Of a stretch of DNA of 35,386 bases, positions 3,791 to 25,641 are shown piece after piece. The position numbers were made by a program, and so were the translations under genes. Below the pieces are notes generated by a model that did not search any database, had not been told where the DNA came from, and saw only the letters and a list, made by a program, of their open reading frames with translations. The stretch is from a virus. How positions within the stretch are numbered: position 1 is the first letter of the stretch; the number at the start of each line of letters is the position of its first letter. The stretch lies in the IMG/VR virus record IMGVR_UViG_3300008339_009656, positions 1-35,386 of that record; one strand, given 5' to 3'.

Positions 3791-6700
3791 ATGTCAAACA
3801 AAAGAATATCCGAATTACCCTATATTGATCAAACGAAAATATCTGGTAATACTTTGGTTCCACTAGTAACATATTATAGTGCGGTTACTGGAACTACAGT
3901 CCATACATATGTTGATGACTTTAAGGACTACATTTTAAGTGGAGTATCTGGATTAACAGAAATATACGTAACTGGCGGTACTTATTCGGCAAATACAATT
4001 ACTTTTACAAACAATACTGGAGGAACATTTACTGTAACGGGTATTACAGTAACCGGAACTACGATAATGGTTGGTGATTATCTCCCTCTAAGTGGTGGGA
4101 CCGTTACGGGATCAACGTCTTTTACGTCTGGGTTAAATTCAAATATAATTTCAGCAACAACTTATCAGAATTTACCAATAAGTGGATTAACCGCTGGTAA
4201 TAACATTAATATAAGTGGTTCAAATGGTAATTTCACAATATCAGTAACCGGCAATTCTTTAGATTTACAACAAGTAACTAATGTAGGTAATACGACAGAT
4301 ATTGACATTATAGTTACTGATGGTATTGATAGTAGTAATATAGGCACACAAAGCATTGTAGTTACAAATGGAATATCTGGTTCATATTCTGCAATAAATT
4401 ATGATGGCACTATTTCATTAAAAGCAGGTTCTCAATCAAGTGGTTTAGCTAATACAAATGTCACTAATGCAAATGTGATGTTAGAATTTCCTAATAAAAC
4501 TGCAGGAAGTTATACAATAGCAACAACAAACGATTTAACAAGCTATGTACCATATACGGGAGCAACAACAAACGTTAATTTAGGTTCAAATGGATTATCA
4601 GCTAATACAATTTCAGCAACAACTTATCAGAATTTACCAATAAGTGGATTAACCGCTGGTAATAATATTAATATAAGTGGTTCAAATGGTAATTTTACAA
4701 TATCCGTTACTGGAATAACAAGTGGTACTACTTTTACTGGAAATACATCAGCCACTTGCATAAATGACTTATATGTAAGTAATTTACACGGATGTTCACC
4801 AATAACAATTCATGATAGTATACAATTTACTGGATCAACAGCATCTGGATTATTATCCTATGCTGAAGGATATCAAACAACAGCATATGGTGATTATTCT
4901 CACTCTGAAGGTAGACAGACAACGGCATCTGGTGATTATTCTCACGCTGAAGGTAGTGACACAACAGCATCTGGTGAATATTCTCACGCTGAAGGTTATA
5001 ATACACAAACTGGAAAATACGGAGCATACTTATCTGGACCAATAACAAGTGGTACCATAACTTTAAATTCAAGTTACGGTAACGTAACACCTAATTTTAC
5101 ATCTGGTAATACTATTGTTATTGATGATAGTGATTTTAATAGTAATATTGGAAGGTCAAATTATACAATATCCGCGGTTACTTTTTCTTCACCAAATACG
5201 ATAATTTATCTAAATCAAACAGGTACAACTTGTACCGGTAACGCGATTATTGGTAATATAAGTAATTTTTCATTATGGAACGGTGATCAAATATTAAGAG
5301 GTGATTACTCCCACGCTCAAGGTGAAGGAACAAAATCCATCGGTATTTCATCATCTGCTAGTGGTTATTACACTATCGCATTTGGAAATTATTCAAGTAC
5401 TAGTGGTGAGTACACAATTGCGTTAGGAAATTATTCTCACGCTGAAGGTAGAGCAACAACGACAATTAGAAATTATTCTCACGCTGAAGGCAGTACAACA
5501 ACCGCATCTGGATATTATTCTCACGCCGAAGGTATTCAGACAACGGCATCTGGATTATATTCTCACGCCGAAGGTGGTCAAACAGTAACTATAGGTCAAT
5601 ATTCTCACGCTGAAGGCGGTGAAACTACCGCCGTCGGTATCAGTACCCATGCTGAAGGAAAATCAACAATGGCATATGGTGTGTATTCACACGCCGAAGG
5701 TAGTGGAACAACGACATATGGTGTGTATTCACACGCTGAAGGAAAATCAACAACAACAATAGGTGGTCATTCACACGCTGAAGGTATTGGAACAACGGCA
5801 TTGGGTCAAAGTTCACACGCTGAAGGTATTCAGACAACTTCTGTTGGTAATGGTTCTCACGCTGAAGGTAATTACTCAGTAGCCATAGGTAGTGCTTCTC
5901 ACGCTGAAGGTGATTATACAACGGCATCTGGAAATTATTCTCACGCTGAAGGTTCATCAACAACAGCGTCCGGATATGCTTCTCACGCTGAAGGTTCATC
6001 TACAACAGCATCTGGTGTTGGTTCTCACGCTGAAGGTTATAATACGCAAACTGGAAAATATGGTGCGTATTTATCCGGACCAATAACAAGTGGTATTATA
6101 ACTTTAAATTCAAGTTACGGTAACGTAACATCTGGTTTTACATCTGGAAATACAGTTGTTATTGATGATAGAGATTTTAATAATAATATTGGAAGGTCAA
6201 TGTTTACTATTTCAGCGGTGACCTTTTCCTCACCTAATACAATACTATATCTTACATCAACTATTGTAAATTGTTCAGGAAACGCATTAATAGGTAATGT
6301 TAGTGATTTTAGTTTATGGAACGGTGACCAAATAATAAAAAGTAATTATTCACATAGTGAAGGTAATAATACTTTTACTTTGTGGGAAAATTCTCACGCT
6401 GAAGGTTATAAATCAATAGCACTAACACCCAATTCTCACGCTGAGGGTGGGGATCAACTTAATAACATACCTGGAGGTTATACTATTGGTGTTGGTTCGC
6501 ATGCTGAAGGTGTATTAACAACTTCTTTTGGGGGTTGGTCACACGCTGAAGGTTACCAAACGATAAGTTACGGTAATGGTTCACATTCTGAGGGTAAATT
6601 AACAACCGCATTAGGTAATTTTTCTCATTCCGAAGGTCTTCAAACGACAGCGTCGGGTTATTATTCTCACGCTGAAGGTCTTCAAACGACAGCGTCGGGT

Positions 6701-8803
6701 TATTATTCTCACGCTGAAGGATACAAAACAATAAGTAGTGGTATTGGTTCTCATGCCGAAGGTGGGGATCAACTTAATGACTTAGCTGGAGGTTATGCGA
6801 TTGGTGTTGGTTCGCACGCTGAAGGTATAAATACAACTTCTATTGGTATTGGTTCCCATACCGAAGGTAGATCAACCACAGCCTCCGGGTATGGTTCTCA
6901 CACTGAAGGTTCTTTAACGACAGCATCCGCATATTATTCTCATGCTGAAGGTAGAGAAACTACAGCATCTGGAGATTATTCTCATACTGAAGGATATAAA
7001 ACAATTGCAACTGGTAGAAGTTCTCACGCTGAAGGTGGTGATCAAATTAATAATATACCTGGAGGTTATGCGTTAGGTACTGGTTCACATGCTGAAGGTA
7101 TTAATACTCAAACAGGAAAATACGGAGCATATTTATCTAATCCTATAGTAAATGGTGTTATAACTCTTAATTCAAGTTACGGTAACGTAACATCTGGCTT
7201 TACATCTGGTAATACTGTTGTTATTGATGATAGATATTTTAATAATGATATTGGAAGGTCAAACTACACAATATCCGCAGTTACTTTTTCGTCACCTAAT
7301 ACTATATTATATCTTACTAGTACTATTGTATATTGTTCCGGAAACGCAATAATTGGAAATTTAAGTGATTTTACATTATGGAATGGTGATCAAATAATAA
7401 GAGGTGATTATTCCCACGCACAAGGTGAATTAACTTGGAGTATAGGTATAGGTTCTAATACAAAAGGAGCATTGAATACCGCGTCTGGTTATCATTCACA
7501 CGCCGAAGGTGGTGAAACACATTCCATTGGGAGTGGGTCACATAGTGAAGGTAGAACAACAACTTCTGTTGGTTCTTTTTCTCACGCTGAAGGTAATGCA
7601 ACAACAGCATCAGGAGGTTATTCTCACGCTGAAGGTAGACAGACAGCCGCAATTGGAATTTATTCACACGCTGAAGGTGGTTCAACAACGGCATTAGGTG
7701 AATATTCTCACGCTGAAGGTAGAGAAACAATGACATCTGGAAATTATTCTCACGCTGAAGGTTATCTTTCAACAACAGTTGGTAGTTATTCTCATGTTGA
7801 AGGTGAAAGAACAACAGCGTTTGGACGAAGTTCTCATACTGAAGGTATAGGAACAATCACAGTAGGTGACTATCAACACGTACAAGGTATGTGGAATGTT
7901 ACTGGTGATACAACACAAGGTGCTTTTATTGTGGGCAATGGTTCAGATAATAACAATAGAAGTAATTTAATATTTGCAGCAGGAAACCAAGTTAATATAT
8001 CCGGAAAAACAACAACCACGAACTTCAGAATGACATCTGGGGCAACAAATGGTTATGTTTTAACATCAGATAATGATGGAAATGCGAGTTGGAAAATATC
8101 CGAAGTTGTAGGTAACTATTTACCATTAAGTGGTGGAACCGTAAGTGGGGGTACATCGTTCACAAGTGGATTGAGTGCTAATACGATTTATATAACAACA
8201 ACACCGACGACTGACACACAAACAACGACACAATATTTAACAAGAGATTCTTCAACAGGTCAAATTAAAAGTAAAACTATTCCAGGACCAACAGTTTATG
8301 GTTTATTCGCTCAAACTGGGAATAGTACAACAATAAGTGGTACAACATCGGAATTGTCATTAATTGATGGTGGTATTGGTACATTATCTGTCCCTGAGAA
8401 TGGTTTTAACATTGGTGATTCATTTAGGGCTGACTTTGGTGGATTAATGTCTTCAAAACAAAATGATGATATAAGAATAAGAATTAAGTCTGGATCTGTA
8501 GTTTTAGCGGATAGTGGTTTACAAAATATGGATGCCGGAACTGATGATGTGTGGCAACTTTCAGTTAATTTTACGATAAGAAAAATTGGGGGGCCCACTC
8601 AAGCTGAAATTGTCACATTAGGCGTGTTCCACACAACAAAACAATCAAATGGCACACAAACAGGGTTTGCATTTAATACCGTTAATTATACAACATTTGA
8701 CACAACAATACCAAATCAATTGGATGTGACCGTACAATTTAGTAGTACTGACTCATTAAATAAGATTTATTCTGATATTTTTATTTTAAATAAAATCTAT
8801 TAA
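3791..8803 (+). CDS. Giant tail fibre with SHAEG (YadA/Hep_Hag-like) repeats
   Basis: A 1670-residue fibre. The N-terminus (MSNKRISELPYI...LVPLV) matches the usual attachment end of tail fibres. Residues ~60-340 are Thr/Ser/Gly-rich with a duplicated segment (LPISGLTAGNNINISGSNGN at two places). From ~355 to ~1365 there are dozens of 14-residue units of the form YSHAEGxxTTASGx, the left-handed beta-roll repeat of YadA-like heads and trimeric phage fibres. Three copies of a ~97-residue module (NTQTGKYGAYLS... to ...LWNGDQ) interrupt the repeats at even intervals. The last ~160 residues (from FAQTGNSTTISGTTSEL) lack repeats and look like a C-terminal beta-sandwich head of C1q/TNF type, the likely receptor-binding tip. 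It has no signal peptide. The length and near-identical DNA repeats make it prone to repeat-number change. Certain as a fibre; receptor unknown. Confidence 0.92.
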   Translation: MSNKRISELPYIDQTKISGNTLVPLVTYYSAVTGTTVHTYVDDFKDYILSGVSGLTEIYVTGGTYSANTITFTNNTGGTFTVTGITVTGTTIMVGDYLPLSGGTVTGSTSFTSGLNSNIISATTYQNLPISGLTAGNNINISGSNGNFTISVTGNSLDLQQVTNVGNTTDIDIIVTDGIDSSNIGTQSIVVTNGISGSYSAINYDGTISLKAGSQSSGLANTNVTNANVMLEFPNKTAGSYTIATTNDLTSYVPYTGATTNVNLGSNGLSANTISATTYQNLPISGLTAGNNINISGSNGNFTISVTGITSGTTFTGNTSATCINDLYVSNLHGCSPITIHDSIQFTGSTASGLLSYAEGYQTTAYGDYSHSEGRQTTASGDYSHAEGSDTTASGEYSHAEGYNTQTGKYGAYLSGPITSGTITLNSSYGNVTPNFTSGNTIVIDDSDFNSNIGRSNYTISAVTFSSPNTIIYLNQTGTTCTGNAIIGNISNFSLWNGDQILRGDYSHAQGEGTKSIGISSSASGYYTIAFGNYSSTSGEYTIALGNYSHAEGRATTTIRNYSHAEGSTTTASGYYSHAEGIQTTASGLYSHAEGGQTVTIGQYSHAEGGETTAVGISTHAEGKSTMAYGVYSHAEGSGTTTYGVYSHAEGKSTTTIGGHSHAEGIGTTALGQSSHAEGIQTTSVGNGSHAEGNYSVAIGSASHAEGDYTTASGNYSHAEGSSTTASGYASHAEGSSTTASGVGSHAEGYNTQTGKYGAYLSGPITSGIITLNSSYGNVTSGFTSGNTVVIDDRDFNNNIGRSMFTISAVTFSSPNTILYLTSTIVNCSGNALIGNVSDFSLWNGDQIIKSNYSHSEGNNTFTLWENSHAEGYKSIALTPNSHAEGGDQLNNIPGGYTIGVGSHAEGVLTTSFGGWSHAEGYQTISYGNGSHSEGKLTTALGNFSHSEGLQTTASGYYSHAEGLQTTASGYYSHAEGYKTISSGIGSHAEGGDQLNDLAGGYAIGVGSHAEGINTTSIGIGSHTEGRSTTASGYGSHTEGSLTTASAYYSHAEGRETTASGDYSHTEGYKTIATGRSSHAEGGDQINNIPGGYALGTGSHAEGINTQTGKYGAYLSNPIVNGVITLNSSYGNVTSGFTSGNTVVIDDRYFNNDIGRSNYTISAVTFSSPNTILYLTSTIVYCSGNAIIGNLSDFTLWNGDQIIRGDYSHAQGELTWSIGIGSNTKGALNTASGYHSHAEGGETHSIGSGSHSEGRTTTSVGSFSHAEGNATTASGGYSHAEGRQTAAIGIYSHAEGGSTTALGEYSHAEGRETMTSGNYSHAEGYLSTTVGSYSHVEGERTTAFGRSSHTEGIGTITVGDYQHVQGMWNVTGDTTQGAFIVGNGSDNNNRSNLIFAAGNQVNISGKTTTTNFRMTSGATNGYVLTSDNDGNASWKISEVVGNYLPLSGGTVSGGTSFTSGLSANTIYITTTPTTDTQTTTQYLTRDSSTGQIKSKTIPGPTVYGLFAQTGNSTTISGTTSELSLIDGGIGTLSVPENGFNIGDSFRADFGGLMSSKQNDDIRIRIKSGSVVLADSGLQNMDAGTDDVWQLSVNFTIRKIGGPTQAEIVTLGVFHTTKQSNGTQTGFAFNTVNYTTFDTTIPNQLDVTVQFSSTDSLNKIYSDIFILNKIY
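5000..5290 (+). repeat. Fibre inter-repeat module, copy 1
   Basis: First of three 291-bp in-frame modules in the fibre gene, running from NTQTGKYGAYLS to LWNGDQ. It shares long stretches of near-identical DNA with the copies at 6041 and 7103, for example TTAAATTCAAGTTACGGTAA. It is probably a spacer or bulge domain in the trimeric beta-roll. Confidence 0.85.
6041..6331 (+). repeat. Fibre inter-repeat module, copy 2
   Basis: Second 291-bp copy of the NTQTGKYGAYLS module. It differs from copy 1 mainly in the segment before LWNGDQ (TSTIVNCSGNALIGNVSDFS in place of the first copy's version). The equal length of all three copies argues for duplication with purifying selection. Confidence 0.85.
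6635..6718 (+). repeat. Exact 42-bp tandem duplication in fibre gene
   Basis: Two back-to-back identical 42-bp units (6635-6676 and 6677-6718), each starting GGTCTTCAAACGACAGCGTC and encoding GLQTTASGYYSHAE. The absence of any silent difference, in contrast to the diverged units around it, indicates a very recent tandem duplication of one beta-roll turn. Confidence 0.9.
7103..7393 (+). repeat. Fibre inter-repeat module, copy 3
   Basis: Third 291-bp copy of the NTQTGKYGAYLS module, again ending LWNGDQ and followed by a SHAQGE turn as in copy 1. Copies 2 and 3 share the TSTIV-type C-terminal half, so they are closer to each other there than to copy 1. Confidence 0.85.
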
Positions 8804-9277
8804 TTCAAAGTGGACCCTCTCTTTACTGCCGACCATTTGTTTGTACCACAATCCTTTTTCATCCAACCAAACATATGGATCATTAGGATTTTCCATCCAA
8901 CCGTGTTTTGAATAATAATCAAAATCTTTTCTTAAAAGGTTCGCCCTATGTGATGAATGAAAATCTTCACAACCTAACCAATGTGGCAATATAAATTCAC
9001 CTTCAATTTTTTCATATTCCATTGTGTTTTTAAAACCACGAACTTTCCAAACGTCAATTGAGTCGTTATAATATTGTTTAAGAGCGTTTACGTATGGTCT
9101 CCACATAATTGAACACGGATGATTTAACCAACCTTTATAAGGTTTACCATCTTTACGTAAACGACCGGTAATAGCCGATATTATCTGGTAAGCCTCAACT
9201 CGTTGTTTACCTAAACGTTTGTTGTCAAGTGATTCTAATGATTTTCTAAAATCTGAATATGGAAGAAATGTTTGCAT
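8786..9277 (-). CDS. MSMEG_6728 / pyrimidine-dimer-glycosylase-like family protein
   Basis: A 163-residue protein with the recognisable order of the MSMEG_6728 family (often annotated as related to pyrimidine dimer DNA glycosylases): MQTFLPYSDF at the start, LDNKRLGKQRVEA, GWLNHP with a following W, then LPHWLG and FHSSHRANLLRKD, and a final YVWLDE. The length is normal for the family. The family has been linked to DNA repair by similarity, but I know of no firm biochemical role, so repair of UV-damaged phage DNA is an inference. Its 3' end overlaps the end of the fibre gene (8786-8803) on the opposite strand. A TAGTTTTG -7-type box (minus strand, 9282-9289) lies so close to the start that transcription from it would give an almost leaderless message. 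Confidence 0.82.
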   Translation of the reverse strand: MQTFLPYSDFRKSLESLDNKRLGKQRVEAYQIISAITGRLRKDGKPYKGWLNHPCSIMWRPYVNALKQYYNDSIDVWKVRGFKNTMEYEKIEGEFILPHWLGCEDFHSSHRANLLRKDFDYYSKHGWMENPNDPYVWLDEKGLWYKQMVGSKERVHFELIDFI

Positions 9278-10436: not shown

Positions 10437-10467
10437 AAAAATCCCACCATAATTAAATGGTGGGATC
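10437..10467 (-). terminator. Terminator of the tmRNA gene
   Basis: On the minus strand, ATCCCACCAT pairs with ATGGTGGGAT across a short TTAATT loop (10-bp stem), followed by a run of six Ts. It begins just after the encoded CCA end of the tmRNA, as expected for a tmRNA terminator. Confidence 0.88.
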
Positions 10468-10470
10468 AGT

Positions 10471-10883
10471 TGGTGGACCTAGTGAGCTCCGACTCTCACG
10501 TCCGGTTCGTCTTGTTTAAAAGACAACTACATGCTTAGGTTGGTATTTTCTAATACCCCAAACTATTTGGTTTTTTTTTGACCAAAAACAAAGTTAATTT
10601 GTTCTTCACCATCGTAAATTAACAACCAATGGATGACTCAATTTTGGGTTTAGTCATTCTCTACCTTTGTTGAGACTTCTGTTCCAAGGTTATGTGTCCA
10701 CCGACCCGCCGTTTCCGTACCTAATCTAGGCTACAGTAACTTCTTCAGTTGCAATTAAACCAACCACTGAAAGGTTATCTAATACGTTGCCGTATATTGT
10801 TTGAATCAGTTTTTAACGAGATTAATTCAGTCCCGGCATGCTCCCTTTATTCAACCAACGCCCGTCAAATCCGATATAGGCCC
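10471..10883 (-). ncRNA. ssrA: Transfer-messenger RNA (tmRNA)
   Basis: About 413 nt on the minus strand. The ends pair as a tRNA-like acceptor stem: 5' GGGCCTA (10877-10883) with TAGGTCC just before the encoded ACCA (10471-10481). Conserved tmRNA signatures are present in order: GGATTTGACGGG near the 5' end, GCATGCCG, CTCGTTAAAAA, and near the 3' end CTAAGCATGTAGT (10526-10538) followed by CCGGACG. tmRNA rescues stalled ribosomes and tags nascent proteins. The tag is not the usual host type ending in ALAA. In the frame whose UAA (10775-10777) aligns with the E. coli stop, the tag would read DSNNIRQRIR (10807-10775); two other frames are possible. The T-arm (GTGAG/CTCAC) has an unusual 8-base loop AGTCGGAG without TTC. 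A host-type promoter lies upstream and a terminator directly downstream. The identity is secure; the tag frame is not. Confidence 0.93.
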
Positions 10884-10918
10884 ATATGACGTAATGAATA
10901 TTTTCAAAGAACTTATTA

Positions 10919-10949
10919 CAAAGGTAATATATTTATTTTAAATAACCAA
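10919..10949 (-). promoter_or_regulatory. Host-type promoter of the tmRNA
   Basis: On the minus strand, TACCTTTG (10919-10926) is a perfect TAnnTTTG -7 box with TTG (10947-10949) 20 bases upstream. Transcription would begin about 30 bases before the mature tmRNA 5' end, leaving a leader for RNase P to remove. Confidence 0.65.
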
Positions 10950-10964: not shown

Positions 10965-12131
10965 ATGTTAAGAAAAAAATTCATTTTTGAGAACGAGGAA
11001 GAAGGACTAACTGATTATGAAAAAATCCTACGTGCCGCTAAAGGTAATATAAACCTTAGTGAACTTGATTTTGAAGATTCCGAAGGTAATGATTATAGTG
11101 ATGACATTGAAATTACTTATGATGGTTTGGTCTTTACTTTTGATGGTTTGGCCGAGTATTTAAGATTTTTCTTTAAAGACGAATACGAAGAAGGGAGTGA
11201 GTCTTATCACGATGCCGATCATTATGAGTATATGTATACCGGTAATTACGAGTGGAGTCGTGAATTTTGGGATAAGTCAACCGACGAATGGCGAGATGGT
11301 TATATACTTGATCGGTTAACACAAGAGCACCTAGATTTAATTAAAAGGTTAGCTCAAGTTTTATCACCCAATTTATCTAGTAAATTAAAAAACCTAAACA
11401 TTGTTGATTTAACTAAACAAGATAAATTAAAAAAAGAAGTTTCTGATTTTCTAGAAACAATAGATTTATCTGATAGTATAATTGATAAATGGGTTGATGC
11501 TAGTGTTGATGGTACGACAAATAAAATCTATGAAGGTATTGAAGAAAGATATTGTAATGTATTTAGTGAAATAGGTATTGAGAGATATAGTCAGAGATAT
11601 TGTTTTTGGAAATATGAAATGGATTGGGGTTCTTGTATGATTTTATATGCTCGTTTTGGTACAGATGAGGATAAGTTTTTGGACTTACTGTTTGAAGCGA
11701 TTAAAAAATTAAGAGTACGTCATTTACCGGTTTGGTATGAAATGGAATATGAATTTTGGGACAACGAAGCTTTTAATAAAACTTGGGGTCCAGAGGTGAC
11801 AGAATTATTAGAAGAGAAACTTGAAGAAATTGAAAATAATTCAGAATATTTTGATGAGAATTATAGTGATACTGTAGAAAAGGTACTACAACTTGGTGGT
11901 CTTGATAAATGGATAACAACAAATGACGATAAATATCAAATACGGATTAATCAAATTGAACCAGAAACCAGTTTAATTTCCTATAGTATTATACCAAAAG
12001 GTCAATGGAAAGCAAAAGGTGGAAAAACCGATATTGAAAGTTTAATATCGTTATTCTACAACGAAAAACTATTTGATTTGACTGAATCAAAAAAGAGATT
12101 CTCAATCCTCAGAAAAAAATCTATCCTTTAA
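10965..12131 (+). CDS. Hypothetical acidic protein, 388 aa
   Basis: It begins MLRKKFIFENEEEGLTDYEK and is strongly acidic and rich in Tyr, Trp and Phe (for example YHDADHYEYMYTGNYEWSRE). No signal peptide, membrane segment or catalytic motif is evident, and I do not recognise a family. Such acidic, aromatic composition is common in small phage effector or DNA-mimic proteins, but nothing here proves that. Its last 30 bases overlap the last 30 bases of the converging peptidase gene (12102). Upstream are two ATATTTAT boxes. Confidence 0.72.
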   Translation: MLRKKFIFENEEEGLTDYEKILRAAKGNINLSELDFEDSEGNDYSDDIEITYDGLVFTFDGLAEYLRFFFKDEYEEGSESYHDADHYEYMYTGNYEWSREFWDKSTDEWRDGYILDRLTQEHLDLIKRLAQVLSPNLSSKLKNLNIVDLTKQDKLKKEVSDFLETIDLSDSIIDKWVDASVDGTTNKIYEGIEERYCNVFSEIGIERYSQRYCFWKYEMDWGSCMILYARFGTDEDKFLDLLFEAIKKLRVRHLPVWYEMEYEFWDNEAFNKTWGPEVTELLEEKLEEIENNSEYFDENYSDTVEKVLQLGGLDKWITTNDDKYQIRINQIEPETSLISYSIIPKGQWKAKGGKTDIESLISLFYNEKLFDLTESKKRFSILRKKSIL

Positions 12132-13133
12132 AATACCATATAGATCCAATAATTCATCATTAGATATATAGATTTCACTATCACCGTAGAAATCACTTAT
12201 CAATATTCCATCTTCATCCTCAATAACATCAATCGTCTCCAATTGATGTACTTGAAAATCATCATTATCTTGAACAAGTGAATTCATTACTGTTTCTGAC
12301 GTATACACAATTGGTTTATATTCGTATTGGTATTTTTTATAACCAAGCACTTTTACCATATTTTGACCAACAATTATTGCATTTTTTACATCGTCAATTG
12401 ATATAAATTCTTGATTTGTGTGCATGTTATAATAACCGCACGACATATTAATACAACAAACATCAATTTTCTTTTTTAATTGTGAAATATCAGTGTATGG
12501 GTGTGATTGAATAAACATTTCATTTTTAAAACCATCCTCAATGACCTTTAATGTTTTGTTAAAAAATTCGGAATCTCTTTCAAACAAACGAACACCCGAA
12601 CAAATCTCGGTAATTAAATGATTTCCTGGGGCGTCATATTGTGTAATGTAACCAACATCTTGAAGAAAATTCACATCACATTTACTTGATCCGTGACATC
12701 CGGTTTCTTCTGAAACAAACAAACCAATTTTAACTTTATCCAAAGTTTTTAATAACTCCAAACAAATAAAAATACCACATTTGTCATCACCACCAATTCC
12801 GGTTGGTTTGTTATCTTCGGTATATGCCTTTAAACAAGGAACCATCTGGTTATTGAATTGTTTGCCGAAGGTATTTGGTCTAATAAGGTTTTCTTCTTTT
12901 ATGATAATTTTATCAACCTTTTGATGAACGGTATCAGTATGTGCGATGAACATTGGGTAATATTCTCCTTCATTTAATTTACCTTTGGTTGCATAGACAT
13001 TTAACATCTCATCCCTGTAATATGATACACCTGGAATCATATCAAGTTCGTTGCATATATATTCAACCATATCTTCTTCTTGATATGTTTTGGAGGGAAC
13101 TGATAATAATTCTTTAAATTTATTTAGGTTCAT
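12102..13133 (-). CDS. M20-like zinc metallopeptidase
   Basis: A 343-residue protein with the metal-binding and catalytic order of M20/peptidase T-type di-zinc enzymes: AHTDTV (H65, D67), GIGGDDKCG (bridging D116 or D117), SEETG (general base and ligand E142/E143), an Asp near YDAPG (D168) and a late His in MHTNQE (H238). Family members cleave small peptides or acylated amino acids in the cytoplasm. I chose the start MNLNKFKELLSVPS at 13133: the ATG at 13157 would add 8 residues but lies inside the predicted promoter. Possible roles are recycling peptides from proteolysis or processing a cell-wall or signalling peptide (inference). The C-terminus overlaps the convergent 388-residue gene. Confidence 0.88.
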   Translation of the reverse strand: MNLNKFKELLSVPSKTYQEEDMVEYICNELDMIPGVSYYRDEMLNVYATKGKLNEGEYYPMFIAHTDTVHQKVDKIIIKEENLIRPNTFGKQFNNQMVPCLKAYTEDNKPTGIGGDDKCGIFICLELLKTLDKVKIGLFVSEETGCHGSSKCDVNFLQDVGYITQYDAPGNHLITEICSGVRLFERDSEFFNKTLKVIEDGFKNEMFIQSHPYTDISQLKKKIDVCCINMSCGYYNMHTNQEFISIDDVKNAIIVGQNMVKVLGYKKYQYEYKPIVYTSETVMNSLVQDNDDFQVHQLETIDVIEDEDGILISDFYGDSEIYISNDELLDLYGILKDRFFSED

Positions 13134-13144
13134 CTGTTTTTTTT

Positions 13145-13177
13145 GTAAAGATAACATATTTATTTAGATAAAACAAA
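13145..13177 (-). promoter_or_regulatory. Host-type promoter of the peptidase gene
   Basis: On the minus strand, TATCTTTA (13145-13152) with TTTG (13174-13177) 21 bases upstream fits the Bacteroidetes -7/-33 pattern with one mismatch. It places the transcription start just before ATG 13133 and decides against the upstream ATG at 13157. Confidence 0.5.
13156..13163 (+). promoter_or_regulatory. ATATTTAT box upstream of 13183 gene
   Basis: ACATATTTATTTAG lies 27 bases before ATG 13183. It overlaps the divergent peptidase promoter, so the two directions may compete. Confidence 0.5.
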
Positions 13178-14206: not shown

Positions 14207-16426
14207 TTAACTTTTTTTCTTTTTTGTTGGTTTTTTTACTTTAACTTCCGTTTTTTTGTCTTTTTCATTATATGATAAAATAAACTTGGAGCCTTTTTCT
14301 GGGTTATCGTTTAAGATTTTATCGGTTACAGCGTCGTCTACCCACTTTTGAATTGTTCTCTTTAATATACGTGCACCAAACCTTGTGTCGGTACCAACGG
14401 ATATGATGTGTTTTTTCAAAGTTTCATCAACTTCCAATTCAAATTCAATACCATTAATTCGTTTATATACTTTTTCAAGTTCAAGATCAACAATTTGTAA
14501 CAAATCACTTTCATTTAAGTCCTTGAAATAAATAATCTCATCAAAACGGTTAATGAACTCTGGGGCAAACTTTTTAAATAATTCTTTTTCTAGAAGTGAT
14601 TTTATTTCTTCTTCCTTTTTTTCTGTTTTGGTACTTGTTGAAAATCCAACACCAGTTCCAAAATCTTGAAGAACTCTAGTCCCAACATTTGAAGTCATTA
14701 AAATAATGCAATTTTTAAAATTGATTTTTCTTCCGTGTCCGTCAGTTAAAAATCCTTCATCCAACATTTGTAAAAACACATTAAATATTTCCGGATGTGC
14801 CTTTTCAATTTCATCTAACAAAATAACCGAATATGGTTTGTTCTTGATTTTATTTAAGAATGGAGAACCGTCTTCATAACCAACATATCCGGGTGCCGTT
14901 CCAGTTAATTTTGATGTTGCAATTTTATCTGAAAATTCACTCATATCAAGTCGGATAAGTGCGTCCTCACTATTAAACATATGTTTTGCCAATTGTTTTG
15001 CCAACTCAGTTTTACCAACGCCTGAGTTACCAATTAATAATCCACTAAAAATTGGTTTCTTTGGATCATTTAAACCAACCTTGTTTCGCTGGATCGCTCT
15101 TGCGATTTTACTTACCGCGTCATCCTGTCCAATTACTTTTGTTGATAAGGTTTCCTTCAATGTTTTTAATTGTTCGGTCTCATCTGTTGTTATTTTTGAG
15201 ATTGGAATTTTTGTCATTAATGAAACAACGTCATATACCACATCTTCGGTAACTTCTCTTTTAAATAAGTTTCTATTTTTTTCAAACTGAGCTTTTTCTC
15301 TTTCCAAATCAGTTAAAACCTTCCTTTCTTTGTCTCTAAGATTTGCGGCTTCTTCATAACGTTGACTATTAATAACTCTAACCTTTTCTTCTTTAATTTC
15401 TTGAGCTTGTCTTTTTAAATCCTCAATAATTTCTGGTAATTTAATTTCAACTTGCGATCTGGCACCAACCTCATCAATAATATCAAAAGCCTTATCTGGA
15501 AATTCTCTGTCCGTAATATATCGGTCGGCCAACTCAACACAAAGTTTTAAAATGTCCTCAGTATAACTAACTTTGTGGTGATCTTCATATCTTTCTTTTG
15601 AGTTTTGAAGTATTTGTAATGTTTCTTCTTTGGTTGATGGATCAACCATTACTTTTTGGAATCTTCTTTCAAGTGCACCATCCTTTTCAATGTTTTTTCT
15701 ATATTCCTCCAAGGTTGTCGCGCCAATACATTGTAATTCACCTCTTGATAAAGCCGGTTTAAATATGTTTGAAGCATCCATTGAACCTGACGCATTTCCT
15801 GCACCAATCATTGTGTGGATTTCATCAATAAAGATGATGATATCTGGATTATTATAAAGTTCCTCCATAATGACCTTCATCCTTTCTTCAAACTGACCTC
15901 TGTATTTTGTTCCAGCAACAATTGATGTCATATCCAATGAAACAATTCGTTTTCCGGATAAATTTTGAGGACAATCACCTTCAAATATTTTCTTTGCCAG
16001 ACCTTCAATTATGGCAGTTTTACCACAATTGTGAGAAACGACACCATTTGATATGTATTTTCTTTCATTGTCCAATACTTCAAGATCAAATGTATTGTGT
16101 ACACCAATATCTTCTTTTTCAACGACTTCATACATATTATTATCTTCAAAATAAATTAAATCACCAATATTAAGGTTTTTTAAACGAACCCAATACGATT
16201 CATTTAAAACCTCAACATTTTCATTATTTATTGATGATTCAACCTCAACCAAGTGATCCTCGGAACCAGAAAGTTCGGTACCATTTGAAAGTTTTATTTT
16301 ATAACAATTTTTGTTTTGTTTCTTAAATAGGTTACCAACAAGTTTGAAACCAGATGGTGTTTTAATTTTATACGTCCCTCCTTCATTTTCAATTAAATTA
16401 AAAAATTCTTCAATTTTGATTTTCAT
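14207..16426 (-). CDS. ClpC-like ATPase, C-terminal part, fused to split intein C-fragment
   Basis: A 739-residue protein. Residues 1-133 are the C-terminal part of an intein (TPSGFKLVG; block B SGSEDH; C-terminal block ending NGVVSHN), and Cys134 is the +1 extein residue. The extein starts CGKTAIIEGLAKK, the second half of a Walker A motif whose first half (GEPG) is in the gene at 16456-16749. It continues as a class I Clp ATPase: Walker B IIIFIDEIHTM, a UVR-like middle segment (SQRYEEAANLRDKER), second Walker A GNSGVGKTELAK, Walker B VILLDEIEKAHP, sensor region and a basic tail (KKPTKKKKS). A VGF near GTGVGFSTST could be the ClpP-docking loop. After trans-splicing the ATPase would be about 679 residues, lacking the Clp N-domain. 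It is probably an unfoldase working with host ClpP. It starts 29 bases after its partner's stop. Confidence 0.93.
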   Translation of the reverse strand: MKIKIEEFFNLIENEGGTYKIKTPSGFKLVGNLFKKQNKNCYKIKLSNGTELSGSEDHLVEVESSINNENVEVLNESYWVRLKNLNIGDLIYFEDNNMYEVVEKEDIGVHNTFDLEVLDNERKYISNGVVSHNCGKTAIIEGLAKKIFEGDCPQNLSGKRIVSLDMTSIVAGTKYRGQFEERMKVIMEELYNNPDIIIFIDEIHTMIGAGNASGSMDASNIFKPALSRGELQCIGATTLEEYRKNIEKDGALERRFQKVMVDPSTKEETLQILQNSKERYEDHHKVSYTEDILKLCVELADRYITDREFPDKAFDIIDEVGARSQVEIKLPEIIEDLKRQAQEIKEEKVRVINSQRYEEAANLRDKERKVLTDLEREKAQFEKNRNLFKREVTEDVVYDVVSLMTKIPISKITTDETEQLKTLKETLSTKVIGQDDAVSKIARAIQRNKVGLNDPKKPIFSGLLIGNSGVGKTELAKQLAKHMFNSEDALIRLDMSEFSDKIATSKLTGTAPGYVGYEDGSPFLNKIKNKPYSVILLDEIEKAHPEIFNVFLQMLDEGFLTDGHGRKINFKNCIILMTSNVGTRVLQDFGTGVGFSTSTKTEKKEEEIKSLLEKELFKKFAPEFINRFDEIIYFKDLNESDLLQIVDLELEKVYKRINGIEFELEVDETLKKHIISVGTDTRFGARILKRTIQKWVDDAVTDKILNDNPEKGSKFILSYNEKDKKTEVKVKKPTKKKKS
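16028..16426 (-). other. Split intein C-fragment (IntC, 133 residues)
   Basis: From its own ATG to the terminal His-Asn, with Cys as the following extein residue. It holds most of the intein fold, including block B (SGSEDH) and blocks F/G (NTFDLEVLDN...NGVVSHN). There is no endonuclease domain. The proportions resemble the IntC of atypical split inteins such as AceL-TerL. Confidence 0.9.
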
Positions 16427-16455
16427 AATATTTTTATAAATTTTTTGTTATGTTA

Positions 16456-16749
16456 TTAGATGGTCTCAATATTATGAGTATTCACATCAGAAACTTTTTC
16501 TACTTCAATCCACGTATCACCTAAAACACATCCAGGTTCACCAAGTATGATTGGATTATTCTTTTTTCTTCTGGATAAAATCTGAGCAATCCTATTAATT
16601 TCATCTTCTCTACCAACAACCGGATCCAACTTACCTTCTTCGGCCAATTTTATTAAGTCTCTTGAAAAGTTATCAAGAACCGGGGTTTTACTTTTGGAAT
16701 CCGTGTTTTTACTTTTGGATTTGTCCATATCATCAAATGACTCAATCAT
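16456..16749 (-). CDS. ClpC-like ATPase, N-terminal part, fused to split intein N-fragment
   Basis: A 97-residue protein. Residues 1-22 are a hydrophilic Lys/Ser-rich start with no Clp N-domain. Residues 23-73 are the beginning of a Clp AAA+ domain ([49 protein letters not shown]), ending in the middle of Walker A. Cys74 then begins a 24-residue intein N-fragment ([17 protein letters not shown]...) that carries the block A pattern C-x-x-GDT and ends at a normal TAA. The partner gene 29 bases downstream carries the rest of the intein and the CGKT half of Walker A, so an active ATPase can form only by protein trans-splicing. Directly upstream is a 229-base gap shared with the divergent UVR-motif gene. 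Confidence 0.92.
16459..16530 (-). other. Split intein N-fragment (IntN, 24 residues)
   Basis: Starts with nucleophile Cys74 of the upstream gene ([10 protein letters not shown], block A). At 24 residues it is far shorter than the ~100-residue IntN of canonical split inteins such as DnaE, and matches the atypical class with ~25-residue N-fragments. Confidence 0.9.
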
Positions 16750-22662: not shown

Positions 22663-25641
22663 ATGGCAGAAAATAAATTAACGGTTTGGCAGAGGTTAGG
22701 GAAAGTATTTGGTCCGACATCCACATTGGATCAACAATCACCTGTGTTTAAATTTGATAAGAAACAATTATTAAAGACAACAGATAAAAATGAGTTTGAA
22801 AGGGAGAAACTTGAAGCCCAACAAACCATGTATATTGGTAAACAATGGCAGAAGGTTGAGAGTAATTTATACCAACAAGCGGTGTACTATGAACCAACCA
22901 GAATGGCTTCATATTATGATTATGAGGCCATGGAGTACTCAATCCATGGGGACACCAAAATTGCCACTCCTGATGGTTTTATGACCATAAAAGAGCTTTC
23001 AGACAAGGGTAGAGATTATGAATTTATAACATACGCTTATGACCATAATTTGAAAAAAGTAGTACCAGCAATCGCCAGAAATGCTCACTATACCAGAGAT
23101 GAAATGGCTTATAAAATTACGTTTGATGATGGGTCACATATTATCGCAACTTATGGTCATAGGTTCTTAAAAAGGGATGGTGTTTTTTGTGAGGTTGAAA
23201 ACCTTAAACCGGGGGATTCAATGATGCCATTTTATAGAAAATCTTTTTACAATAATCAAAATTACCATTGGGTTTATACTTGTAATTCAAACGAGGGTCA
23301 TCATGGTTGGATATCTGAACACAATTTAATTGCGGAGTGGTATTATAAAAGAAAAATTAATGAAGACGAAGAAGTTCATCATAAAGATTTCAATGGTAAA
23401 AATAACAAACCGGAAAATTTACAAATAATGAATATTTCCGAACATAGAGCTTATCATGCGAGATTAAACAACGAAAAATTATGGGCAAACCCCGAATATA
23501 GACAAAAAATGTCTGAAGTTGCTAGAAGAACCGGTAAGTATAGTTGGGAAGGGAAAAGAGCTAAAGAGAATAATCCGGCATATATAAAATTATCATTTGA
23601 TTTGATTGTTGAAAAAGCAAGAGAACATAGAACGTTAATGGAAACTGCCACCTCACTTGGTGTTTCATTTAGAAAAATACAGAATGAACTTAGATTCAAT
23701 GGGTTTAAAAATTGGTTTGATTTTTTGGATGTTTATGGAATTGATAAAAGTAATAGTGATACTTACGGTGAAAAAAACAATAACTTCAAAAAAATCGCTT
23801 GGGATTTATTAATTGAAATTGCTAGACAAGAAAATAGTATTACAAATACGGCCAAAAGATTGAATGTAAGTAGAAATAAAATTTTAAAAACAATAAAAGA
23901 AGGGGGATTTAATAATTGGATTACATTTTTGGAATCATATGGTATTGAAAAATCAAAACACCACCACCCAAAAAATGAAGAACCAGTTATTAATCACAAA
24001 ATAGTATCAATTGAACCATATGGTGTTGTACCAGTTTATGACTTAACTGTGCCGGGTTATAAGAACTTCGCTACAGATACCATTTTCTCACACAATACAC
24101 CTGAGATCTCTGCCGCTCTTGATATTTACTCTGAAGAATCCACCACTCCTGACCAAGACGGACACATTTTAAAAGTCTACTCTGAATCAAAAAGAATTAA
24201 ACAAGTATTGGTTGATTTGTTTGTAAATAGACTTGATATAAACACCAATTTACCGATGTGGACAAGAAACACTTGTAAATTTGGCGACAATTTCACATAT
24301 TTAAAGTTAGACCCAGAAAAAGGGGTTGTTGGGTGTCAACAATTACCAAATATCCAAATTGAAAGATTGGAAAAGGGGATGAGATTTCAACCGGACAAAT
24401 ATTCACAAGAAATGGAAAACGATGCTTTGAAATTTGTTTGGAAAGAAAAAAATATGGAGTTCAATACGTGGGAAATTGCCCACTTTAGAATACTTGGAGA
24501 TGACCGAAAATTACCTTATGGGACATCTATGTTGGAGAAGGCTAGACGTATATGGAAACAGCTCCTTTTATCGGAAGATGCGATGATGATTTACCGGGTA
24601 TCAAGAGCACCAGAAAGAAGGGTATTTAAAGTATTTGTCGGAAATATGGATGACAAAGATGTTGATTCATATGTACAACGTGTGGCAAACAAATTTAAAA
24701 GAGATCAGATTGCGGACCCTAAAACTGGAAATGTGGATATGAGATACAACCAATTGGCCGTAGATCAAGATTACTTTATCCCGGTTAGAGACCCTTCCCA
24801 AACCAATCCAATTGAAACATTGCCGGGTGGTACAAACTTAGCCGAAATTGCTGATATTGAATATATCCAAAAGAAACTGGTAACTGCCCTTAGAATACCA
24901 AAGGCGTATTTAGGTTTTGAAGAAGCAGTAGGTAATGGACAAAACTTATCTTTACTTGATATTAGATTTGCAAGAACAATCAACAAAATTCAAAAATCAA
25001 TGTTGGCCGAACTTAATAAGATTGCCATTATTCATTTATTTTTATTAGGGTTTGAAGATGAACTAACAAACTTTACGTTGGGGTTACACAATCCATCAAA
25101 ACAATCCGAACTTCTTTCATTGGAATTGTGGAAAGAAAAAATTGAATTATACAAAAATGCGGTAGCTGAAATCGCAAATTCGGTTGCACCAACCTCAGCT
25201 TCTTGGGCTAAAAAGAATATTCTAGGTTTCTCAGATGAGGAGATCAGATTGGATTTACAACAACAACGAATTGAAAGGGCTGTTGCAGCTGAACTTGCTA
25301 AAACACCTGAAGTCATTACAAAAACTGGATTGTTTGATAATATTGATCAATTATATGGTAAAAAACCAGGTGAACCGGCAGGTGAAGCACCAGAAGGTGG
25401 AGAAGAACCTGGAGGAATGCCACCAATGGGTGGAGGATCTGAACTAGGAGGACCACCCCCACCACCGGGACCAGAACCAGGAGGTGAAGTAGGAGTAACA
25501 CCAGAATCAACCAAGAAAAATGATTTAAATTTAATTCTGGAAGATAACTTATATTATGGTAAAACCTCTCTTGATTTATCAAAGGGTAGATTAACCATTA
25601 ATGAAATTGATGACAAATTAAAAGATTTATTGGATAAGTGA
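22663..25641 (+). CDS. Portal protein (T4 gp20-like) interrupted by an HNH intein
   Basis: A 992-residue precursor. Residues 1-92 and 479-992 are the portal. The junction restores YDYEAMEY-TPEISAALDIYSEES, the conserved gp20-type segment. The C-extein has IAHFRILGDDRKLPYGTSML, KARRIWKQLLLSEDAMMIYR, RVSRAPERRVFKVFVGNM and the helical wing, and ends with a Gly/Pro/Glu-rich tail (about 900-950) plus a short C-terminal segment. The portal is the dodecameric vertex that nucleates head assembly and channels DNA. Residues 93-478 are an intein (described separately) whose removal yields a ~606-residue portal. It follows the terminase by 41 bases and precedes the other head genes, as in T4. Confidence 0.95.
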   Translation: MAENKLTVWQRLGKVFGPTSTLDQQSPVFKFDKKQLLKTTDKNEFEREKLEAQQTMYIGKQWQKVESNLYQQAVYYEPTRMASYYDYEAMEYSIHGDTKIATPDGFMTIKELSDKGRDYEFITYAYDHNLKKVVPAIARNAHYTRDEMAYKITFDDGSHIIATYGHRFLKRDGVFCEVENLKPGDSMMPFYRKSFYNNQNYHWVYTCNSNEGHHGWISEHNLIAEWYYKRKINEDEEVHHKDFNGKNNKPENLQIMNISEHRAYHARLNNEKLWANPEYRQKMSEVARRTGKYSWEGKRAKENNPAYIKLSFDLIVEKAREHRTLMETATSLGVSFRKIQNELRFNGFKNWFDFLDVYGIDKSNSDTYGEKNNNFKKIAWDLLIEIARQENSITNTAKRLNVSRNKILKTIKEGGFNNWITFLESYGIEKSKHHHPKNEEPVINHKIVSIEPYGVVPVYDLTVPGYKNFATDTIFSHNTPEISAALDIYSEESTTPDQDGHILKVYSESKRIKQVLVDLFVNRLDINTNLPMWTRNTCKFGDNFTYLKLDPEKGVVGCQQLPNIQIERLEKGMRFQPDKYSQEMENDALKFVWKEKNMEFNTWEIAHFRILGDDRKLPYGTSMLEKARRIWKQLLLSEDAMMIYRVSRAPERRVFKVFVGNMDDKDVDSYVQRVANKFKRDQIADPKTGNVDMRYNQLAVDQDYFIPVRDPSQTNPIETLPGGTNLAEIADIEYIQKKLVTALRIPKAYLGFEEAVGNGQNLSLLDIRFARTINKIQKSMLAELNKIAIIHLFLLGFEDELTNFTLGLHNPSKQSELLSLELWKEKIELYKNAVAEIANSVAPTSASWAKKNILGFSDEEIRLDLQQQRIERAVAAELAKTPEVITKTGLFDNIDQLYGKKPGEPAGEAPEGGEEPGGMPPMGGGSELGGPPPPPGPEPGGEVGVTPESTKKNDLNLILEDNLYYGKTSLDLSKGRLTINEIDDKLKDLLDK
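22939..24096 (+). other. Intein with HNH endonuclease in the portal gene
   Basis: 386 residues. The intein starts with Ser93 (SIHGDTKIATPDGFMTIKEL, block A), has block B TYGHRFL, and ends with VPVYDLTVPGYKNF...IFSHN followed by Thr479 as the +1 residue. Nucleophile 1 is Ser and +1 is Thr, rather than the commoner Cys pair. Between the splicing blocks is an HNH endonuclease (EHNLIAEWYYK...EVHHKDFNGKNNKPENLQIM) and two tandem ~50-residue helix-turn-helix repeats (LGVSFRKIQNELRFNGFKNW and LNVSRNKILKTIKEGGFNNW), the likely DNA-recognition part. It looks intact, so it may be an active homing element. Confidence 0.92.

Follow-up and report, generated by a model that had tools for sequence, protein, structure and literature searches.

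A phage tmRNA with a conserved 21-residue tag, encoded near a ClpC-like unfoldase and a peptidase: a possible viral tag-and-destroy pathway

The stretch of DNA analysed in the present study (35,386 nt; hereafter, the window) constitutes a virus record of 35 kb and derives from a T4-like phage, with genes for the terminase, a T4-type portal, the prohead protease and the major head protein. The nearest named phages show about 29% identity in the terminase, and the host is probably a member of Bacteroidota. The portal gene (22663-25641, plus strand) is interrupted by a complete intein that includes an HNH endonuclease domain. The gene at 3791-8803 (plus strand) encodes a protein of 1670 aa with many SHAEG-type repeats, which is probably a tail fibre or an adhesin, and a pyrimidine dimer DNA glycosylase is encoded at 8786-9277 (minus strand). 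The features of the tmRNA locus and of the adjoining genes are listed in Table 1.

Table 1. Features of the tmRNA locus and neighbouring genes in the window.
Feature	Position	Strand	Details
Intrinsic terminator hairpin ATCCCACCAT/ATGGTGGGAT with T-run	10441..10466	-	read from sequence; perfect hairpin 3' of the tmRNA
One-piece tmRNA (ssrA), 413 nt	10471..10883	-	5' end 10883, CCA 10473-10471; RF00023 match and 13 RNA-model homologues
T-arm: GUGAG stem, loop AGUCGGAG (10494-10487), CUCAC	10482..10499	-	perfect stem; loop type shared by 34 of 127 unique homologues
Tag frame GNVLDNLSVVGLIATEEVTVA, resume codon GGC 10791-10789	10729..10791	-	21 aa; stop UAG 10728-10726; kept in 13/13 relatives
UAUAC directly 5' of the resume codon, A at -4 (E. 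coli A86)	10792..10796	-	98 of 99 unique contexts have this A
Acceptor stem, 5' strand GGGCCUA	10877..10883	-	pairs with UAGGUCC 10481-10475; all homologues in correct register have G3:U70
boxA-like leader TTCTTTGAAAAT	10900..10911	-	5' of the mature tmRNA end
Bacteroidota sigma-A -7 box TACCTTTG (TAnnTTTG)	10919..10926	-	TTGG 19 nt upstream (10949-10946)
388-aa protein, divergent from the tmRNA	10965..12131	+	no Pfam, NCBIfam or PHROG match; in 31/46 homologous loci
PepT/M20-M42-like metallopeptidase	12102..13157	-	Pfam M42 27 bits (cut-off 23.2); PHROG_4191 peptidase E 2e-37
ClpC-like AAA+ unfoldase without N-domain	14207..16749	-	two ORFs, 16456-16749 and 14207-16426; Pfam AAA_2, AAA_lid_9, ClpB_D2-small

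A complete one-piece tmRNA is encoded on the minus strand at exactly 10471-10883, where the initial annotation had placed it; it is matched by the whole of the RNA model RF00023 (78.3 bits against a gathering score of 47; E 5.8e-29; model positions 1-374 of 374) and is a tmRNA by homology. The acceptor pairing, the encoded CCA and the terminator named in that annotation are all present. As read from the sequence, the 7-bp acceptor stem GGGCCUA/UAGGUCC includes the G3:U70 alanine identity pair. The same pair was found in 109 of 127 automatic registrations of homologues, the remaining 18 starting at least one base off (with acceptors such as TGGGGGT), a misregistration judged by eye. The UAG stop codon of the tag is located at or near the tip of a GCCU/AGGU hairpin, like that of the classical helix 5 of tmRNA. 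In most homologues the stem of this hairpin is altered yet paired, and the UAG is predicted to be fully unpaired in 13 of 61 cases and partly unpaired in 48. The phage RNA shares with bacterial one-piece tmRNAs (RF00023) the tRNA-like domain with G3:U70, the D-loop GGAUUUGAC, the core CUAAGCAUGUAG, a PK1-like element, the A at -4 of the resume codon and the stop near a hairpin tip. It differs from them in the tag, which is 21 aa long, the commonest length being 10 (PMC11915505), and ends in TVA or AVA, and in the 8-nt T-loop AGUCGGAG found in about a quarter of the phage tag family.

The Bacteroidota sigma-A consensus is TAnnTTTG (PMC9723704). Among 107 unique upstream regions, 93 contain this motif, against 7% of shuffled sequences, and the element TTCTTTGA is found in 82 of the 107 unique leaders, compared to 0.2% in shuffles. 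The latter element may represent a boxA similar to that of rRNA leaders.

The reading frame of the tag was established by comparison with relatives that had been found by the RNA model only. A terminase search yielded 80 related contigs; 42 of these were searched with the RNA model alone, and 13 tmRNAs were detected. Their alignment revealed one conserved frame, GGC AAC GTA TTA GAT AAC CTT ... GTT ACT GTA GCC TAG, which fixes the frame of GNVLDNLSVVGLIATEEVTVA in the window. This frame is also open in 67 distinct tag DNAs, in which the alternative frames carry stops in 67 and 65 cases, respectively; these DNAs were selected by pattern, and the unbiased evidence on the frame is that of the 13 RNA-model relatives. 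In tmRNAs, position -4 relative to the resume codon is nearly always occupied by A (A86), and this base sets the frame (PMC2481249). Although the -4 base was not included in any search pattern, an A was found there in 98 of 99 contexts, 94 of which have GGC as the resume codon, and by this rule translation resumes at the GGC beginning at 10791. The comparison of relatives placed the resume codon at this position, and, in agreement with the earlier observation, no frame of the window encodes a tag of the ALAA type.

Of the frames considered in the initial annotation, the one running from 10803 to 10726 and ending in TEEVTVA is correct as a frame, but it begins at GGC 10791 and not at 10803, so that the first four codons are removed and 21 residues remain. 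The frame giving KQYTATY is not conserved in relatives. The tag DSNNIRQRIR or SNNIRQRIR, for which the UAA at 10775-10777 would serve as the stop, can be read in the window, but this frame is kept neither in the 13 relatives nor in the wider family. The long frame is conserved there instead, and the rule of the A at -4 makes GGC the resume codon, so a basic, non-degron tag SNNIRQRIR is scarcely conceivable. The corresponding description of the tag as basic and polar at the C-terminus, unlike a degron, is not supported either: the tag is long, hydrophobic in its pattern and ends in V-T-V-A, which is near the E. coli LVA degron.

Further members of the family were collected from IMG/VR with DNA patterns derived from the sequences of the tag end and the T-loop, and 93 of the 94 matches of the first tag pattern proved to be tmRNAs. 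The family includes 238 instances, some of them representing the same contig counted twice, with 69 tag DNAs and 42 tag peptides, and 237 instances are exactly 21 aa long. Among the 41 distinct 21-aa peptides, G1, G11, V18 and A21 are invariant, and a hydrophobic pattern is seen at positions 4, 7, 10, 12 and 13. The conservation of the tag end is partly a product of how the instances were selected, since the search pattern fixed the VT/AVA end, and the 13 model-found tmRNAs form the unbiased set. In the tag DNAs, pS (0.51) exceeds pN (0.28), with synonymous change near saturation. The tblastn search of the INPHARED collection (50,697 phage records) with two of the tags gave no match, 21-aa sequences being weak queries. 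Deviating tmRNAs were also recorded. In L420 the tag stop is altered, extending the end to ..EVTVAY; in L419 a large internal deletion has removed the tag end; and in a 484 kb phage (LR756508.1 92434-92880, L242) the tmRNA carries an apparent 36-residue tag, GVNNADYESAGFTAEDFAQMDGESLYHGSERKPAAV. The latter phage also has a gene for a ClpC-like protein whose loop reads IGF.

The tag of the window does not possess the C-terminal L/x-A-A of the ssrA LAA degron; it ends in TVA, and only distant members have VVAA. The most distant relatives, which were found via ClpC and not via the tag, carry GNTFAKMSALGLMREASVVAA and GNTFAKLSTLGLIREESVVTA, with ends ..SVVAA or ..SVVTA. These sequences tie the TVA and AVA ends to the usual tags ending in AA and mark the 21-aa tag as a long and modified form of the ssrA type. 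In E. coli, LVA acts as a strong degron (PMC9097571). Most likely, the 21-aa tag is a degron. It might instead be a binding or localisation peptide, composed of an amphipathic helix and a strand, that moves rescued chains elsewhere or keeps them stable, as the length fixed at 21 and the hydrophobic pattern would allow; however, the constant C-terminal alanine and the relatives ending in AA suit a degron, and protease-related genes adjoin the tmRNA, which makes such a peptide improbable.

The T-loop of the window was reported earlier as odd, and AGUCGGAG at 10487-10494 is indeed found there in place of UUCRANU, within a perfect GUGAG/CUCAC stem. UUCRANU is the usual T-loop in tmRNA, but it is not required for the RF00023 family score. 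An 8-nt loop AGTC[GA]GAG (AGTCGGAG or AGTCAGAG) was found in 34 of 127 unique complete homologues, most of the others having UUCGA; 18 of the 127 automatic registrations are visibly off by at least one base, and the oddest T-loops are among them. The variant loop is always closed by a stem of five pairs; four such stems, different in sequence and each fully paired, were observed. By these comparisons, AGUCGGAG is a conserved variant, or allele, and not a sign of decay. ARAGORN, when run on the window, reported no tmRNA at 10471-10883. This result and the non-canonical T-loop are what a decayed pseudogene might be expected to give, but the loop AGTC[GA]GAG is shared by 34 unique homologues with compensated stems, G3:U70 is kept, the tag frame is open, and a promoter and a terminator are present. 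The pseudogene reading is therefore very improbable and was rejected on account of the conserved T-loop and the compensated stems. The locus almost certainly represents a working phage tmRNA that carries the 21-aa tag, so far as this can be judged from sequence.

The T-loop variant and the tag are independent of each other, since the same tag peptides occur with UUCGA loops, and it follows that the tRNA-like ends have been exchanged. The loop AGTCGGAG is also carried by the tmRNAs of two phages whose tags are ordinary, namely ANNDVEIDDFAIAA in L209 and ANDNAFAPVAQAA in L210. The idea that the tag is specific to the odd T-loop was rejected on both grounds. In two family members the loop is interrupted (TT/CGAGT) by a group I intron (RF00028, 92.7 bits in L425, which is the same 281 kb contig as L354; a near-identical intron sequence is present in L268), and an HNH-type ORF lies directly 3' of these intron-bearing tmRNAs. 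The existence of T-loop introns makes it possible that AGUCGGAG is an intron-resistant allele. A lone tmRNA 3' end with the AGTCGGAG loop was noticed in a 310 kb contig (L231, 1306-1338), the rest of the tmRNA being absent; it is perhaps an attachment site, which would imply a bacterium with a AGTCGGAG T-loop. This loop is absent from 51 genomes of the class of Bradyrhizobium; 11 bacterial matches from a genome scan whose spacer was one base too long are no test of the T-loop and were attributed to chance.

The unfoldase encoded upstream of the tmRNA possesses two AAA modules and a PhiGF ClpP-docking loop, which reads FGTGVGF in the window and conforms to [VILM]GF in all 94 distinct loops compared. 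In S. aureus, ClpC no longer binds ClpP when the PhiGF motif is mutated (PMC12521514). With the bacterial ClpC of the ClpCP protease, the phage protein shares the two AAA modules, the PhiGF loop and the GTKYRG and GYVGY pore loops; unlike it, the protein is phage-encoded, has no N-domain and in some copies contains a split intein. Only about 30-45 residues precede the first AAA module in these proteins of about 680 aa; the N-terminal adaptor domain is absent, and the unfoldase is called no more than ClpC-like. In the window, the coding sequence is interrupted within the first Walker A motif: a split intein there consists of a 24-residue N-part followed by a stop and a C-part beginning with MKIKIEEFFN. 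The intein looks naturally split, since the N-part with the stop recurs in L387, L354, L298 and L264.

The product of the peptidase gene keeps H73-x-D75, D124-D125, E150-E151, D175 and H246 in 70 homologues, residues that correspond, by motif only, to metal ligands (HxD, D, EE, D, H). The NCBIfam PepT model gave E 4.6e-9 and 35.6 bits, below the curated score of 255, and for this reason the peptidase is referred to only as PepT-like. The search of PDB sequences with this protein gave no match.

In the tag loci, the tag is preceded on its own strand by the ClpC-like gene, at a distance of about 1-6.6 kb, and the PepT-like peptidase gene lies in between. Wherever a tag locus included at least 5 kb of sequence upstream, both genes were present (76 of 76), as they were in 46 of 46 loci with at least 7 kb. 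Other neighbours vary: two small ORFs of the window occur in one of 46 loci and the ORF of the 388-aa protein in 31. A 255-aa neighbour protein is also kept, in 23 of 25. Among 40 long contigs, ClpC is encoded in all 38 with the tag (58-94% identity) and is absent from the two with ordinary tags. With such constancy, the suggestion of the initial annotation that the tag may be linked to the phage's own Clp ATPase deserves to be taken seriously. L209 and L210, with their ordinary tags and AGTCGGAG loops, encode ClpP and no ClpC, and the L210 contig has two ClpP copies. The ClpC match in LR756511 (tag ANPEFAMAA) is only weak. In the 630-640 kb phages LR756502 and LR745206, ClpC with the PhiGF loop is present and no tmRNA was detectable. 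LR745206.1 (635 kb) also contains a GOLLD RNA (287 bits; L408, 2540-2945) near tRNAs. No SmpB was found in the 40 phage contigs, and ClpP is encoded in only three of the 38 tag phages, which means that host SmpB and ClpP would be needed. Linkage need not mean function, because the tag phages belong to a single lineage in which gene order is conserved, and all of them may share one ancestral arrangement.

The position of the tmRNA beside an unfoldase and a peptidase raises the possibility of a tag-and-destroy pathway operated by the virus itself during infection. AlaRS, SmpB and EF-Tu have established roles in trans-translation. In the proposed pathway, the phage tmRNA would be transcribed from a host sigma-A promoter and charged with alanine by the host AlaRS through G3:U70, and the host SmpB and EF-Tu would use it for the rescue of stalled ribosomes, so that alanine and GNVLDNLSVVGLIATEEVTVA would be added to unfinished chains. 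The V-T-V-A end and the conserved hydrophobic body would send the tagged chains mainly to the phage ClpC lacking the N-domain, which would dock on the host ClpP for their degradation, and the PepT-like peptidase would finish the peptides. In this way, both ribosomes and amino acids could be recovered for virion production. The C-terminal V-x-V-A and the linked genes make a degron for ClpCP the most likely role of the tag, and for the pathway as a whole we assess the probability at about 0.45.

Host ClpXP or Lon could make use of the terminal TVA equally well. It is quite possible, though we would not favour it, that the tmRNA and its tag work, a host protease of this kind degrades the tagged chains, and ClpC and the peptidase are neighbours only by kept gene order. 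The C-terminal V-x-A resembles the LVA and LAA degrons (PMC9097571), distant members end in AA, and the 255-aa protein is another retained neighbour. Recognition of tags by Lon has a precedent in Mesoplasma; the Mesoplasma/Mycoplasma ssrA tag is likewise long and does not end in LAA, but the phage tag is unrelated to it in sequence, belongs to a different phylum and has no link to Lon. Conservation over the whole 21 residues, with invariant G1, G11, V18 and A21, goes beyond what a C-terminal degron needs, and ClpC and the peptidase are the most constant neighbours; both points argue against a reading in which a host protease alone is concerned. A wider proposal is rather doubtful as a whole; it adds to the pathway (a 21-residue degron, a phage ClpC without N-domain taking over host ClpP, and a finishing peptidase) a T-loop swapped between the normal and the AGUCGGAG form and, in the latter form, resisting group I introns or homing endonucleases that target the T-loop.

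Phage tmRNAs have been reported before from mycobacteriophages, Bacillus phage G and SAR11/OM43 phages (PMC4131195, PMC9004378), and the tmRNA described here resembles them in being phage-encoded. It is distinguished from them by the 21-aa tag family, with no tblastn match in INPHARED, by the linked ClpC and peptidase genes, and by a host that is probably a member of Bacteroidota. The papers searched contained nothing relevant to a phage-encoded tmRNA, or to a tmRNA tied to ClpP, in Bacteroidota phages. The tmRNA database of 2025, which was built mainly with ARAGORN and BLAST, holds 97,179 sequences, of which 79 are unique entries from phages (PMC11915505). If ARAGORN behaves elsewhere as it does in the window, a database based on it would miss the AGUCGGAG T-loop form. 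The new elements are the family of tags of fixed 21-residue length, their conservation over the whole length, the AGUCGGAG T-loop and the constant ClpC and peptidase neighbours. Phage tmRNAs are little studied, and a fixed-length tag encoded beside an unfoldase and a peptidase makes a ribosome-rescue and proteolysis route of the phage's own directly testable. The tag and unfoldase pair could also serve as a tool in Bacteroidota.
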